Assembly: GCF_038096165.1 (NCBI RefSeq)
Contig: NZ_CP151076.1
Location: forward strand, 1,860,001-1,924,000
Reading direction: 5' to 3'
Length of the DNA stretch: 64,000 bases
From: Pseudomonas sp. G.S.17
GTDB taxonomy: Bacteria > Pseudomonadota > Gammaproteobacteria > Pseudomonadales > Pseudomonadaceae
Both the position numbers and the translations under genes were made by a program. Under the pieces are notes generated by a model, which was given only the letters and a program-made list of their open reading frames with translations, ran no database searches and had not been told where the DNA came from. This document shows positions 38,867 through 48,995 of the stretch, in pieces; within the stretch, counting starts at the first letter, position 1; the number at the start of each line of letters is the position of its first letter.

Positions 38867-38898
38867 GTGTTGATCGCTTACATAAGGACGACGCTGAA

Positions 38899-39258
38899 AC
38901 CTGTGGGAGAGGACTTGTCCTCGAAGAGGCCTGTACATCCGACGCTTTTTTGAACCTGAAACTAAGCCTTCGCGGGCAAGCCTCGCTCCCACAAGGACGG
39001 CGGTTAGCCTGTGGGATTGAAGCCGGATCCGTTGGAGCGAGGCTCGCCCGCGAACGCGTCATATCAGCAACGGCACTGACCTGTGGGAGAGGGCTTGTCC
39101 TCGAAGAGGCCTGTACATCCGACTCTTTTTTGAACCTGAAACTAAGCCTTCGCGGGCAAGCCTCGCTCCCACAAGGACGGCGGTTAGCCTGTGGGATTGA
39201 AGCCGGATCCGTTGGAGCGAGGCTCGCCCGCGAACGCGTCATATCAATAACGGCACTG
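38899..39258. repeat. Two tandem 180-bp REP-containing units
   Basis: Positions 38899-39078 and 39079-39258 are near-identical copies with an exact 180-bp period (differences seen at 38912/39092, 38944/39124 and near the unit end). Each unit holds three REP-like segments in alternating orientation: GACTTGTCCTCGAA, TTCGCGGGCAAGCCTCGCTC and GAGCGAGGCTCGCCCGCGAA. The copies look recently duplicated. They lie between the DUF2802 gene and the fhlB stop. The long open frames crossing them are repeat artefacts. Confidence 0.9.
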
Positions 39259-39260
39259 AA

Positions 39261-39354
39261 CTTGTGGGAGCGAGCTTGCTCGCGAAAGCGGTATACGGCT
39301 TCCAGAGATCGGCAGGATCTGCTTATCTCTTCGCGAGCAAGCTCGCTCTCACAG
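39261..39354. repeat. REP palindrome pair
   Basis: GTGGGAGCGAGCTTGCTCGC near 39263 is mirrored by TCGCGAGCAAGCTCGCTCTC ending at 39351. It follows directly on the 180-bp tandem units and ends four bases from the fhlB stop codon, so it may also serve as a 3' hairpin for that leftward gene. Confidence 0.85.
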
Positions 39355-44372: not shown

Positions 44373-46346
44373 ATGATTCCTGAACTCGGCCATCTGGCCA
44401 TGATTCTGGCGCTGTGCTTCGCCGTCGTGCAGGCCTTCGTGCCGCTGATGGGCGCATGGCGCGGCGACCGCATGTGGATGGGTTTGGCGCAGCCAGCAGC
44501 GTGGGGGCAGTTCACGTTTCTGGTCTTTGCTTTCGGTTGCCTGACTTATGCATTCATGACTGACGATTTTTCCGTGGCCTACGTCGCGGAAAACTCCAAC
44601 AGCGCCTTGCCCTGGTACTTCAAGTTCAGCGCCGTATGGGGCGCCCACGAAGGCTCGCTGCTGCTCTGGGCGTTGATTCTCGGTGCGTGGACCTTCGCTG
44701 TATCGATCTTCTCCCGCCAGTTACCTCAAGTGATGCTCGCCCGAGTGCTGGCGGTGATGGGCATGATCAGCGTCGGCTTCATGCTGTTCCTGATCCTGAC
44801 CTCCAACCCGTTTTCGCGCATCCTGCCGCAAATTCCGGCCAATGGTCGCGATCTCAATCCGTTGTTGCAGGACATTGGCCTGATCGTGCATCCGCCGATG
44901 CTCTACATGGGCTATGTCGGGTTTTCGGTGGCCTTCGCCTTCGCCATCGCGGCACTGCTCGGCGGGCGTCTCGATGCGGCCTGGGCGCGCTGGTCGCGGC
45001 CATGGACCATCGTCGCCTGGGCCTTTCTCGGCATAGGCATCACCTTGGGCTCCTGGTGGGCCTATTACGAACTTGGCTGGGGCGGCTGGTGGTTCTGGGA
45101 CCCGGTGGAAAACGCTTCGTTCATGCCCTGGCTGGTCGGCACGGCGCTGATCCATTCGCTGGCAGTCACGGAAAAACGCGGCGTGTTCAAGAGCTGGACC
45201 GTGCTGCTGGCCATCGCGGCGTTTTCCCTGAGCCTGCTGGGAACATTCCTGGTGCGCTCCGGGGTCTTGACCTCGGTTCACGCGTTCGCCTCCGACCCGG
45301 CGCGCGGCGTATTCATTCTGATTTTCCTGCTGTTCGTCGTGGGCGGATCGTTGACCTTGTTCGCTTTCCGCGCTCCGGTGGTGAAAAGCCATGTGGGCTT
45401 TGGCCTGTGGTCGCGGGAAACCCTGCTGCTGGGCAATAACCTGGTGTTGGTGGTGGCCGCTTCGATGATCCTGCTTGGCACCCTGTATCCGCTGGTGCTT
45501 GACGCCCTGAGCGGCGCGAAAATGTCCGTTGGCCCGCCTTACTTCAACGCGCTGTTCGTACCCCTTATGGGCCTGCTGATGGCAGTAATGGCGGTCGGCG
45601 TGCTGGTGCGCTGGAAAGACACGCCGGTCAAATGGCTGCTGAGCATGCTGGCCCCGGTTCTGATCGGCAGCGCCGTGCTGGCGGTGATCGCCGGTTTCGC
45701 CATGGACGATTTCCACTGGGCAGTGCTGGCGACCTTCATGCTCGCCGCGTGGGTATTGCTGGCGGGCGTTCGTGACTTGCTGGACAAGACTCGCCACAAA
45801 GGCTTGATCAAAGGCGCGCGCGGCATGACCCGCAGCTATTGGGGCATGCAGGTTGCGCACATCGGGATCGCCGTGTGCGCCCTGGGCGTGGTGCTTTCCA
45901 GCCAGAACAGCGCCGAGCGCGACCTGCGTCTGGCGCCCGGTGAATCCATGGAGCTGGGCGGCTACATGTTCGTGTTCGACGGCGCCAAACATTATCAGGG
46001 CCCGAACTTCACCTCGGATCGCGCCACCATTCGCGTCCTGGAAAACGGCAAGCAAGTGACCATCCTGCACCCGGAAAAACGCCTGTACACCGTGCAGCAA
46101 TCGATGATGACCGAAGCCGGTATCGACGCCGGTTTCACTCGCGATCTGTACGTGGCACTCGGCGAACCGCTGGGCGACGGCGCCTGGGCGGTACGGGTTC
46201 ACGTCAAGCCGTTCGTGCGCTGGATCTGGTTCGGCGGTTTGATCACTGCGTTGGGAGGCGTTCTGGCAGCGATGGACAAGCGTTACAGGGTCAAGGTGAA
46301 AAGCAAAGTACGTGACGCCCTGGGCATTGCGGAGGCGGCAGTATGA
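44373..46346 (+). CDS. ccmF: Cytochrome c haem lyase subunit CcmF
   Basis: CcmF with CcmH(I) attaches haem to apocytochrome c. The 657-residue protein has about 15 membrane spans and the WWD domain reading GWGGWWFWDPVENASFMPW near residue 240. Length and motifs are those of the family. It overlaps ccmG by four bases. Confidence 0.97.
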   Translation: MIPELGHLAMILALCFAVVQAFVPLMGAWRGDRMWMGLAQPAAWGQFTFLVFAFGCLTYAFMTDDFSVAYVAENSNSALPWYFKFSAVWGAHEGSLLLWALILGAWTFAVSIFSRQLPQVMLARVLAVMGMISVGFMLFLILTSNPFSRILPQIPANGRDLNPLLQDIGLIVHPPMLYMGYVGFSVAFAFAIAALLGGRLDAAWARWSRPWTIVAWAFLGIGITLGSWWAYYELGWGGWWFWDPVENASFMPWLVGTALIHSLAVTEKRGVFKSWTVLLAIAAFSLSLLGTFLVRSGVLTSVHAFASDPARGVFILIFLLFVVGGSLTLFAFRAPVVKSHVGFGLWSRETLLLGNNLVLVVAASMILLGTLYPLVLDALSGAKMSVGPPYFNALFVPLMGLLMAVMAVGVLVRWKDTPVKWLLSMLAPVLIGSAVLAVIAGFAMDDFHWAVLATFMLAAWVLLAGVRDLLDKTRHKGLIKGARGMTRSYWGMQVAHIGIAVCALGVVLSSQNSAERDLRLAPGESMELGGYMFVFDGAKHYQGPNFTSDRATIRVLENGKQVTILHPEKRLYTVQQSMMTEAGIDAGFTRDLYVALGEPLGDGAWAVRVHVKPFVRWIWFGGLITALGGVLAAMDKRYRVKVKSKVRDALGIAEAAV

Positions 46347-46879
46347 AACGTTGGATCCTGTTGTTGCCGCTGGCGATTTTCCTCGCTGTCGCGGTGTTTC
46401 TCTATCGCGGTCTGTACCTGGACCCGGCGGAGCTGCCGTCGGCCTTGATCAACAAACCATTCCCCGAGTTTTCCCTGCCCCAGGTGCAAGGCGACAAGGT
46501 GCTGACCCGCGGAGACGTGCTGGGCAAACCGGCGCTGGTCAACGTCTGGGGTACCTGGTGCGTGGCTTGCCGGGTCGAGCACCCGGTGCTCAACAAACTG
46601 GCTCAGCAAGGCGTGGTGATCTACGGCATCAACTACAAGGATGTGAACGCCGACGCCCTGAAATGGCTGCAGGACTTTCATGACCCTTATCAGCTGAACA
46701 TCCGCGACGAGCAGGGCAGCCTGGGCCTGAATCTGGGTGTCTACGGCGCGCCGGAAACTTTCCTGATCGACAGCAAAGGCATCATTCGTCACAAGTACGT
46801 CGGTGTGATCGACGAAACCGTGTGGCGCGAGCAACTGGCCGGGTTGTATCAGGGATTGGTTGATGAGGCTCGCCAATGA
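46343..46879 (+). CDS. ccmG: Thiol:disulfide interchange protein CcmG/DsbE
   Basis: CcmG keeps apocytochrome c cysteines reduced. The 178-residue product has an N-terminal anchor (5-22), a thioredoxin fold and the active site WGTWCVACRVEHP (CxxC near residue 73), plus GAPETFLID. Its stop overlaps the ATG at 46876. Confidence 0.95.
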   Translation: MKRWILLLPLAIFLAVAVFLYRGLYLDPAELPSALINKPFPEFSLPQVQGDKVLTRGDVLGKPALVNVWGTWCVACRVEHPVLNKLAQQGVVIYGINYKDVNADALKWLQDFHDPYQLNIRDEQGSLGLNLGVYGAPETFLIDSKGIIRHKYVGVIDETVWREQLAGLYQGLVDEARQ

Positions 46880-47793
46880 AGCACCTGTATTTACGGACTT
46901 CTGTGGGAGCCGAGCTTGCTCGCGAATGCGACGTCACTGACGCCCAAGAGGGTAAGGATGCGCCGGCCTCTTCGCGAGCAAGCTCGCTCCCAGGGGTTGT
47001 GCAAGTTTCTGTGGGAGCCGAGCTTGCTCGCGAATGCGACGTTACTGACGCCCAAGAGGGTAAGGATGCGCCGGCCTTTTCGCGAGCAAGCTCACTCCCA
47101 CGGGTTGTACAAGTTTCGGTGGGAGCCGAGCTTGCTCGCGAATGCGACGTTACCGACGCCAAAGAGGGTAAGGATGCACCGGCCTCTTCGCGAGCAGGCT
47201 CGCTCCCACGGGTTGTGCAAGTTTCTGTGGGAGCCGAGCTTGCTCGCGAATGCGACGTTACCGACGCCAAAGAGGGTAAGGATGCACCGGCCTCTTCGCG
47301 AGCAAGCTCGCTCCCACGGGTGATTCGGCGCAGCGTCGCTGCGGTCCTGCTCGCTTTGAGCTGCGCGAGCGTGGCCCATGCCGCCATCGATGCTTACGAG
47401 TTTCGCGATGACGCCGAGCGCGCGCGTTACGCCGAGCTGACCAAAGAGCTGCGTTGCCCCAAGTGCCAGAATCAGGACATCGCCGATTCCAACGCCCCGA
47501 TTGCCGCCGACCTGCGCAAGGAAATCTTCCGCATGCTCGGCGAAGGGCAGAGCAATCAGCAGATCATTGATTTCATGGTCGATCGCTACGGCGATTTCGT
47601 GCGCTACAAGCCTGCCCTCAGCTCGCGGACCTGGATTCTCTGGTTCGGCCCGGCCGGTCTGCTGATCGGCGGCCTGTTGGTGATTGGCGTGATCGTCGTA
47701 CGTCGCCGTGGCCAGGGTCGCAACGAGAGCGAAGCCCTTTCCGACGAGGAGCGTCAGCGCCTCGCCCACCTGCTGGATAAAAACCGCGAATGA
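46876..47793 (+). CDS. ccmH: Cytochrome c maturation protein CcmH with in-frame REP array
   Basis: CcmH reduces apocytochrome c for haem ligation. The functional part (about residues 150-305) has a signal-like segment ([17 protein letters not shown]), the redox site LRCPKCQNQ and a C-terminal membrane span ([21 protein letters not shown]). Upstream of it, residues 9-152 are four tandem 36-residue repeats translated from 108-bp REP units. The ATG at 46876 overlaps the ccmG stop and has GAGG eight bases upstream, so translation should enter the repeats. A GTG at 47320 after the repeats would give a normal 157-residue CcmH. Which start is used cannot be told from sequence. Confidence 0.85.
46901..47332. 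repeat. Four tandem 108-bp REP-derived units inside ccmH
   Basis: Units begin at 46901, 47009, 47117 and 47225. Each has GTGGGAGCCGAGCTTGCTCG, a spacer of about 50 nt and the inverse arm TCGCGAGCAAGCTCGCTCCC. The period of 108 bp is 36 codons, so the frame stays open whatever the copy number. Units 1-2 and units 3-4 are more alike (for example CGCCCAAGAG against CGCCAAAGAG), suggesting stepwise duplication. Confidence 0.95.
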
Positions 47794-48995
47794 TTGATTT
47801 CTGGCTAGCTGCTGGCCTGTTGTTGCTGGTGGCCCTGAGTTTCCTGCTGATCCCCGTCCTGCGTGGCCGTCGTGCGCAAAGTGAAGAAGACCGCACCGCG
47901 CTCAATGTCGCCCTGTATCAGGAGCGTGTGGCCGAACTGCAAGGTCAGCAAGCGGAGGGCGTGTTGTCATCGGTGCAGATGGACAACGGTCGCGCCGAAG
48001 CTGCCCGAGAGTTGCTGGCTGACACCGAAGGCGTCGAGCCGCTGCGCACCTCGCGCCTGGGCAAGCCCCTGCCATTGCTGGCGGCGGTGTTGGTCCCGGT
48101 GCTGGGCCTGGCGTTGTATCTGCATTTTGGCGCCAGTGACAAGGTCGAACTGACGCGTGAATTCGCCCAGCCACCGGGTTCCATTCAGGAGATGACCAGC
48201 CGCCTGGAGCGCGCAGTGAAGGCCCAGCCGGATTCGGCCGAAGGGATTTACTTTCTGGCGCGTACCTACATGGCTCAGGATCGTCCGGCAGACGCTGCGG
48301 CGATGTTCGAACGTGCGGCGGCCCTGGCCGGTCGGCCGCCGGAACTGCTCGGGCAATGGGCGCAGGCGTTGTACTTTGCCGGTGGCAAGAAATTCACCGC
48401 GCAAGTCCAGGCGCTGACCGACGAGGCCCTCAAGGTCGATCCGAAAGAAGTCACCAGCCTCGGCCTGTTGGGCATCGCCGCTTTCGAGACCGAGCGTTAT
48501 CAACAAGCCGTGGATTACTGGAAGCGTCTGCTGGCGGTCCTGCCGCCGCAGGATCCGTCCCGCTCGGCCCTGGAAGGCGGTATCGCCCGGGCCAGTGAGA
48601 AGCTGACGGCCAGCGGCGGCGTTGTCCAGGCGCCTGTGGTTGCAGCGAGCCAGACGGCACGCATCAAAGTGCGGGTTGATCTGGCGCCGGAACTGAAAGC
48701 CAAGGTGGCGCCCGGCGATAGCGTGTTCATCTTCGCCCGGGCGATCAAAGGCCCACCGGCACCGCTGGCGGTCAAGCGCGTAACCGTCGCGGACTTGCCT
48801 GCAGAAGTCGAACTGGCAGACGCCGACGCGATGATGCCGCAACTGAAACTGTCCAACTTCCCTGAAGTCCAACTGGTGGCGCGGGTATCCCGTGCAGGCC
48901 AGCCGACCACCGGCGAGTGGATCGGCCGCAGCAAGCCGCTGGCCAGCAGCGTTACGGCGTTGCAGACGCTCACCATCGACAGTCCAGATCAGTAG
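47790..48995 (+). CDS. ccmI: Cytochrome c biogenesis chaperone CcmI
   Basis: CcmI binds apocytochrome c and hands it to CcmFH. The 401-residue product has two N-terminal membrane spans (about 4-24 and 92-112), a cytoplasmic loop between them and a periplasmic TPR region (about 140-270; [26 protein letters not shown]). The C-terminal part is beta-rich. It overlaps ccmH by four bases and ends the ccm operon. Confidence 0.92.

Follow-up and report, generated by a model that had tools for sequence, protein, structure and literature searches.

Four tandem REPINs lie in frame between the start codon and the signal segment of ccmH in the window (the 64,000-nucleotide stretch of Pseudomonas sp. G.S.17 DNA that was analyzed). 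The locus raises the question of whether a repeat class named for its extragenic location is here read as protein and, if so, what the resulting head means for CcmH. We consider it likely that the in-frame REPIN head is a translated and tolerated cytoplasmic pre-sequence ahead of the signal, not a functional domain. Confidence in this reading comes from a comparison of distinct ccmG-ccmH junctions, all of which (172/172) share an ATGA overlap, a constant frame, and an open path into CcmH.

The ccmH reading frame begins with the ATG at 46876, which shares bases with the ccmG stop codon (46877-46879), and remains open to a stop ending at 47793 (305 amino acids). The original prediction placed REP units in frame after the ccmH ATG and ahead of the signal segment, and it is borne out by four REPINs in a frame open for 305 codons. 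Identity of the gene is established by its CcmH domain (PF03918, residues 158 to 300 of the 305-residue product; E value, 9e-55), its LRCPKCQ motif, and its ccm neighbors (ccmE, ccmF, ccmG, and a ccmI/cycH-type gene). The CcmH domain of the product is also matched by two solved structures of such domains, 2hl7 and 2kw0. In a search over 57 genomes, the G.S.17 genome gave one CcmH match; thus, no second ccmH copy was seen that might provide cover for the extended gene.

Features of the ccmG-ccmH region and of a second in-frame REPIN array (positions are those of the window unless a contig is given)
Feature	Coordinates	Strand	Basis or remarks
ccmF	44373..46346	+	ORF, Pfam; 5' of ccmG in one gene cluster
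ccmG, thioredoxin-like (Redoxin and AhpC/TSA families)	46343..46879	+	ORF, Pfam PF08534 and PF00578
ccmH with REPIN-encoded head, 305 codons	46876..47793	+	ORF; start overlaps ccmG stop as ATGA
REPIN 1	46903..46993	+	Left REP with extra C, inner spacer, inverted right REP; then 17-bp inter-unit spacer 46994-47010
REPIN 2	47011..47101	+	Then inter-unit spacer 47102-47118
REPIN 3	47119..47209	+	Then inter-unit spacer 47210-47226
REPIN 4	47227..47317	+	No inter-unit spacer; signal segment directly after
Internal signal segment (putative), codons 149-169	47320..47382	+	Hydropathy windows at residues 149-171, predicted helix 146-166, start-codon and Shine-Dalgarno scan
Mature CcmH domain, 136 codons, LRCPKCQ redox motif	47383..47790	+	Pfam; 2hl7 and 2kw0; cleavage point inferred
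Next ccm gene, ccmI/cycH type (TPR, Ig_CycH)	47790..48995	+	ORF, Pfam; start overlaps ccmH stop
NRPS array frame, 4757 codons	G000:C1:4575626-4589896 (locus L327:2127-16397)	-	Units directly before YLIYTSGSTGKPKG motif

The array was recovered by Tandem Repeats Finder (TRF) as a tandem repeat at 46899-47321 with a period of 108, 3.9 copies, 95% match, and 0% indels. Each 108-bp unit comprises a 91-bp REPIN of two inverted REPs and a 17-bp spacer; three units are complete, the fourth lacks the spacer, and the first REPIN follows the ccmG stop by 23 bp. REPs are described as having a GT(A/G)G 5' end and a palindromic core (PMC3686654), a form shown by GTGGGAGCCGAGCTTGCTCGCGA and, in unit 4, by GTGGGAGCGAGCTTGCTCGCGA of the right, inverted arm. 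All four units pair a left and an inverted right arm at short distance, each pair spanning 91 bp. REPINs are also characterized by an extragenic location, whereas this array sits inside the ccmH frame; by its sequence features, the element is a REPIN.

High genomic copy number, a further property of REPINs, is evident from the 18-bp REP core, which with up to one mismatch has 177 + 187 matches in the genome, compared with none for a backwards-read control pattern; the arm with the extra C has 38 exact matches. When up to three mismatches are allowed, the core matches the window at 15 places (8 of them in the ccmH array) against 0.61 expected, and chance can therefore be set aside as the origin of the array. 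A PF01797 search of the genome did not identify a mobilizer of this REP class, because the sole Y1_Tnp (RAYT-like) match (G000:C1:604111-604434, locus L296) is flanked by REPs of other classes (GTAGGAGCGGCTTCAGCCGCGA and GTGGGAGCGAATTTATTCGCGAA). A second tandem REP-type array lies in the window at 38898-39353 (period, 180; 2.1 to 2.5 copies). Another dispersed repeat adjoins REPs elsewhere in the genome (loci L160 and L213) and is related to the CcmH heads of three collection proteins (P0005, P0048, and P0062).

The ccmG-ccmH junction was compared across 250 Pseudomonadaceae loci, drawn from those genomes whose matches were extracted as loci; these gave 172 distinct junctions. The underlying genome searches covered 57, 398, 398 (family level), and 398 genomes, the last largely repeating the first 398; the scan of named genomes contributed the best 80 of at least 545 confirmed stretches. 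In every junction (172/172), the ccmH ATG overlaps the ccmG stop as ATGA, the distance from that ATG keeps CcmH in frame, and the path from the ATG to RCPKC is free of stop codons. An ordinary short leader is present in 157, with 125 to 137 bp between the ccmG stop and RCPKC, and none of these 157 has a REP match. REP inserts occur in 14 of the 172 and have nine different lengths; the fraction is not a prevalence, because the loci were partly chosen (nearest relatives, and regions taken mainly from matches with unusual open-frame lengths). The REP-bearing junctions are those of the window (four units), the sister species G022 (three units), G724, G173, LP_7_YM, SLFW, and G089, two alleles of length 320 (G407 and G691), and five alleles of length 191 that each carry a single REP arm. 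Two REP types are represented among the inserts: GAGCTTGCTC, and, in SLFW and LP_7_YM, GAATTCATTC. In Pseudomonas sp. RIT409/G216 (L105/L216), the ccmH leader is 36 bp longer than usual and in frame, with no recognized REP.

A REP match is absent from 158 of the 172 junctions, including that of CFII64, the nearest named relative found, whose site is empty. The repeats are thus not ancestral in all relatives. An assembly error is also unlikely as the cause of the insert itself, because the G022 genome carries it with one unit fewer and the frame unchanged.

A search of the protein collection with CcmH gave 411 matches, of which 120 were listed. Among those listed, 78 have a recognizable cleavage site and 27 of the 78 carry REP-derived head motifs, P0014 of P. 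abietaniphila being one; the motif pattern missed P0002, and these collection proteins do not constitute an unbiased frame test. Querying the collection with the head alone retrieved five proteins at an E value of ≤0.01, only one of which (P0001) has a CcmH domain.

The history of the insert was examined on a tree built from ccmG and ccmH after the insert had been removed (51 loci, 48 of them different; G724 lies outside the tree). Inserts fall in two separately supported (starred) groups. One unites the window and G022 (support, 97/80) and has as its sister Pseudomonas sp. CFII64 (100/99), with its empty site. The second has 14 members (99/97), P. graminis WP_8 included, of which 12 were labeled as inserted; RIT409, which lacks a REP, is among these 12. 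At least two changes of insert state are forced by the starred branches and the fewest that fit the tree are four, counts that do not tell gain from loss. The two insert clades may not be fully independent, whether through transfer or through an old insertion with losses. This possibility arises from P0002, a protein of another lineage: its head consists of a single REPIN, and the ends of that head are similar to those of the head in the window.

Whether the array is translated turns on two alternatives set out in the original prediction: a 305-residue product, or a restart at GTG 47320. Had translation restarted there or at a nearby codon, the array would be a structured intercistronic leader and CcmH would be of normal length. 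GTG 47320 is codon 149, as originally stated; it immediately precedes the signal segment and also occurs in G022. Of the ATG, GTG, and TTG codons up to 32 residues from the cleavage site, it alone lies ahead of the hydrophobic core. Precedent also lends a restart some weight, as PMC3733652 judges most REPs at ORF 5' ends in P. putida to be noncoding and proposes that translation starts downstream of most such REPs, in two other species as well as in P. putida. P0001, moreover, begins at a valine within its REP-encoded stretch, and the head lacks codon-level constraint (see below). Against these points, the scan for Shine-Dalgarno-like sequences gave no match upstream of GTG 47320, and strong RNA structure is predicted just upstream of it. 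A scan for ATG, GTG, and TTG over the in-frame positions from 32 to 9 residues ahead of the cleavage site found no such codon in G205/P. petrae or in P. graminis WP_8; because these two species lack nearby start codons of these kinds, the REP is probably translated in them.

The frames of the inserts weigh most heavily in this comparison. Frame and openness would be irrelevant to a restart, yet none of the 14 REP inserts breaks the frame or introduces a stop, and the same is true of all nine distinct insert lengths (9/9). Frame alone, for nine lengths taken as one event each, has a probability of (1/3)^9, or about 5e-5, a rough value that leaves shared ancestry out. Among 447-bp segments around 30 of the 364 REP-core matches in the genome (the first 30 listed), 2.8% were open in a given frame; because these segments include REP flanks, a bare REPIN would be closed less often than this value suggests. 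The long translated head is thus favored, since a restart would leave the insert length free to fall in any frame, and we regard a restart as unlikely. The unit length and constant 108-bp spacing were rejected as coding evidence. A unit that is a multiple of three says little when taken alone, because three of six other tandem REP arrays inspected in the genome share this property (99, 102, and 135 bp, against 101, 103/104, and 104 bp).

If the head is translated, its sequence offers few signs of a function. In the AlphaFold model, almost all of residues 5 to 142 have a pLDDT of <50, a helix spans residues 146 to 166, and the CcmH domain is mostly >65; a folded repeat domain in the head was accordingly rejected. 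A weak Pfam match to SASP_gamma was also discarded, as it falls below the cutoff and spans REP-encoded residues. Purifying selection on the head is unsupported: 8 of 20 variable columns are at third codon positions (P = 0.64; 91-bp REPIN, seven units from the window and G022), and synonymous and nonsynonymous codon differences between units are mixed, from 4 versus 2 (w1-w2) to 4 versus 11 (g1-g3). Features around the signal are conserved: in each of the 14 REP-bearing forms, one or more arginines precede the hydrophobic stretch and the A-H/Q-A-A-I-D cleavage context is retained. The residues before the cleavage site range from 42 to 169, and head sequences differ between related species. We infer from these sequences that the head would be a long cytoplasmic n-region before a normally cut signal, with mature CcmH unchanged. 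Tolerance of differing heads of 42 to 169 residues would follow from such an arrangement.

Two further explanations assign the array a purpose. Its RNA hairpins might tune the ccmG:ccmH transcript or its stability, translation being incidental. The predicted fold of the array RNA is very strong (-273.9 kcal/mol; z = -11.6 versus 100 shuffles), and a role in mRNA is a common proposal for REPs (PMC3733652); tandem inverted repeats fold well whatever their role, however, and the existence of one-arm alleles (the five 191-type junctions) and of 158 junctions (of 172) that do without a REP match makes this explanation very improbable. No structured RNA family of Rfam matched at the gathering threshold in positions 46000-48500, and a known family at the array was therefore rejected. 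Alternatively, the repeat-encoded head could be a functional domain of variable length or a contingency-type tuner. Copy numbers do differ between the sister species (4 versus 3 in ccmH and 6 versus 1 in a nonribosomal peptide synthetase [NRPS] gene), and head length varies widely. A head with no predicted fold, no codon-level constraint between units, and a sequence that differs between related species is nonetheless hard to reconcile with a function, and its length has no on/off consequence; we consider such a role extremely unlikely. The earlier proposal of a contingency locus is supported in one part, in that the array has changed by whole units without a frameshift (4 versus 3 in G022), and is not supported in the other, as no on/off switching is apparent.

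The DNA itself shows the insert, its absence from the site in a relative, its recurrence across species, and its constant frame and openness, and a sequence of events leading to a translated, tolerated pre-sequence can be proposed. REPs between genes of the same direction are located near the 3' end of the preceding ORF (PMC3733652), and a REPIN may have been copied to such a position, just 3' of the ccmG stop. Because the ccmH ATG overlaps that stop, the position after the stop lies inside ccmH. Only frame-keeping, stop-free inserts would leave CcmH made, and only such inserts would persist. Recombination or slippage between repeats may later have shifted the unit number in whole 108-bp steps. 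Ribosomes starting at 46876, coupled to ccmG, would make a 305-residue precursor, of which the disordered head of ∼148 residues would stay in the cytoplasm while the hydrophobic segment (residues 149 to 169) targets CcmH to the membrane. Cleavage by signal peptidase at the conserved AHA-AID site would then release ordinary mature CcmH.

The ccmH gene is not the sole gene of its kind, because an in-frame REPIN array also occurs in an NRPS adenylation domain of the same genome. There, six in-frame units are present, each containing a REPIN and measuring exactly 195 bp (65 codons); in the sister G022, the NRPS frame (4428 codons) includes a single unit, and the related NRPS proteins P0125 to P0127 have an empty site. 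Two tandem REPIN-encoded units (SELARDG...SRASSLP) also occur at a different place in an NRPS fragment of P. brassicacearum (P0230).

More tentatively, ATGA junctions could act as doorways through which repeats that insert after a stop codon land in the next gene, those in frame being kept and amplified as tandem coding arrays. In this Pseudomonas lineage, REPINs would then be a recurrent source of new coding sequence (CcmH heads and adenylation-domain loops of NRPSs), and array length a heritable, fast-changing protein trait. We rate this broader proposal as possible, though rather doubtful. REPs are named "extragenic"; the frame statistics provide a testable case for repeated conversion of REPINs to protein, at a predictable spot that is set by gene overlap in a cytochrome c maturation gene. 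The natural series of alleles (no insert, a single arm, and three and four units) bears on how long a cytoplasmic head signals can carry, on repeat amplification under frame selection, and on start placement by gene callers.

Among known systems, the closest are the REPINs or REP doublets of Pseudomonas (Bertels and Rainey 2011, PMC3116915), which share the inverted REP pair, the palindromic core, the high copy number, and the occurrence in tandem clusters. Known REPINs are described as lying mainly outside genes: SBW25 has 1,067 occurrences of its three commonest 16-mers, and gene overlap is limited to 14 16-mers (PMC3116915). In contrast, the present array is a tandem one in frame inside a conserved gene. 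Intragenic REPs have been described (PMC3733652, 2013), in which REPs or REP dimers within ORFs add residues, with N-terminal cases in P. putida and same-site REP insertions in Xanthomonas recB. The largest encoded regions given there are 43 to 82 amino acids, compared with ∼138 codons in ccmH and, in the NRPS, six units of 65 amino acids that each combine REPIN-encoded and native residues. Whereas the N-terminal cases of P. putida are described there as mostly noncoding, the frames of the 172 junctions argue for coding. The section of PMC3733652 on intragenic REPs does not name ccmH, which its supplement may list, and a full-text search gave no report of REPs in CcmH or NRPS adenylation domains among the matches listed.

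Rickettsia palindromic elements (RPEs) offer a further likeness, drawn by description only, as palindromic repeats that lie in frame within likely functional genes; proteins with an N-terminal RPE-1 are reported to be expressed in vivo (PMC3733652). The RPEs belong to an unrelated host, whereas the repeats studied here are Pseudomonas REPs, tandemly amplified and situated at an overlapping stop/start junction. REPINs, intragenic REPs, and in-frame RPEs are thus known; judged by the matches listed, the apparently new elements are the recurrent CcmH site at an overlapping junction and the REPINs within NRPS adenylation domains.
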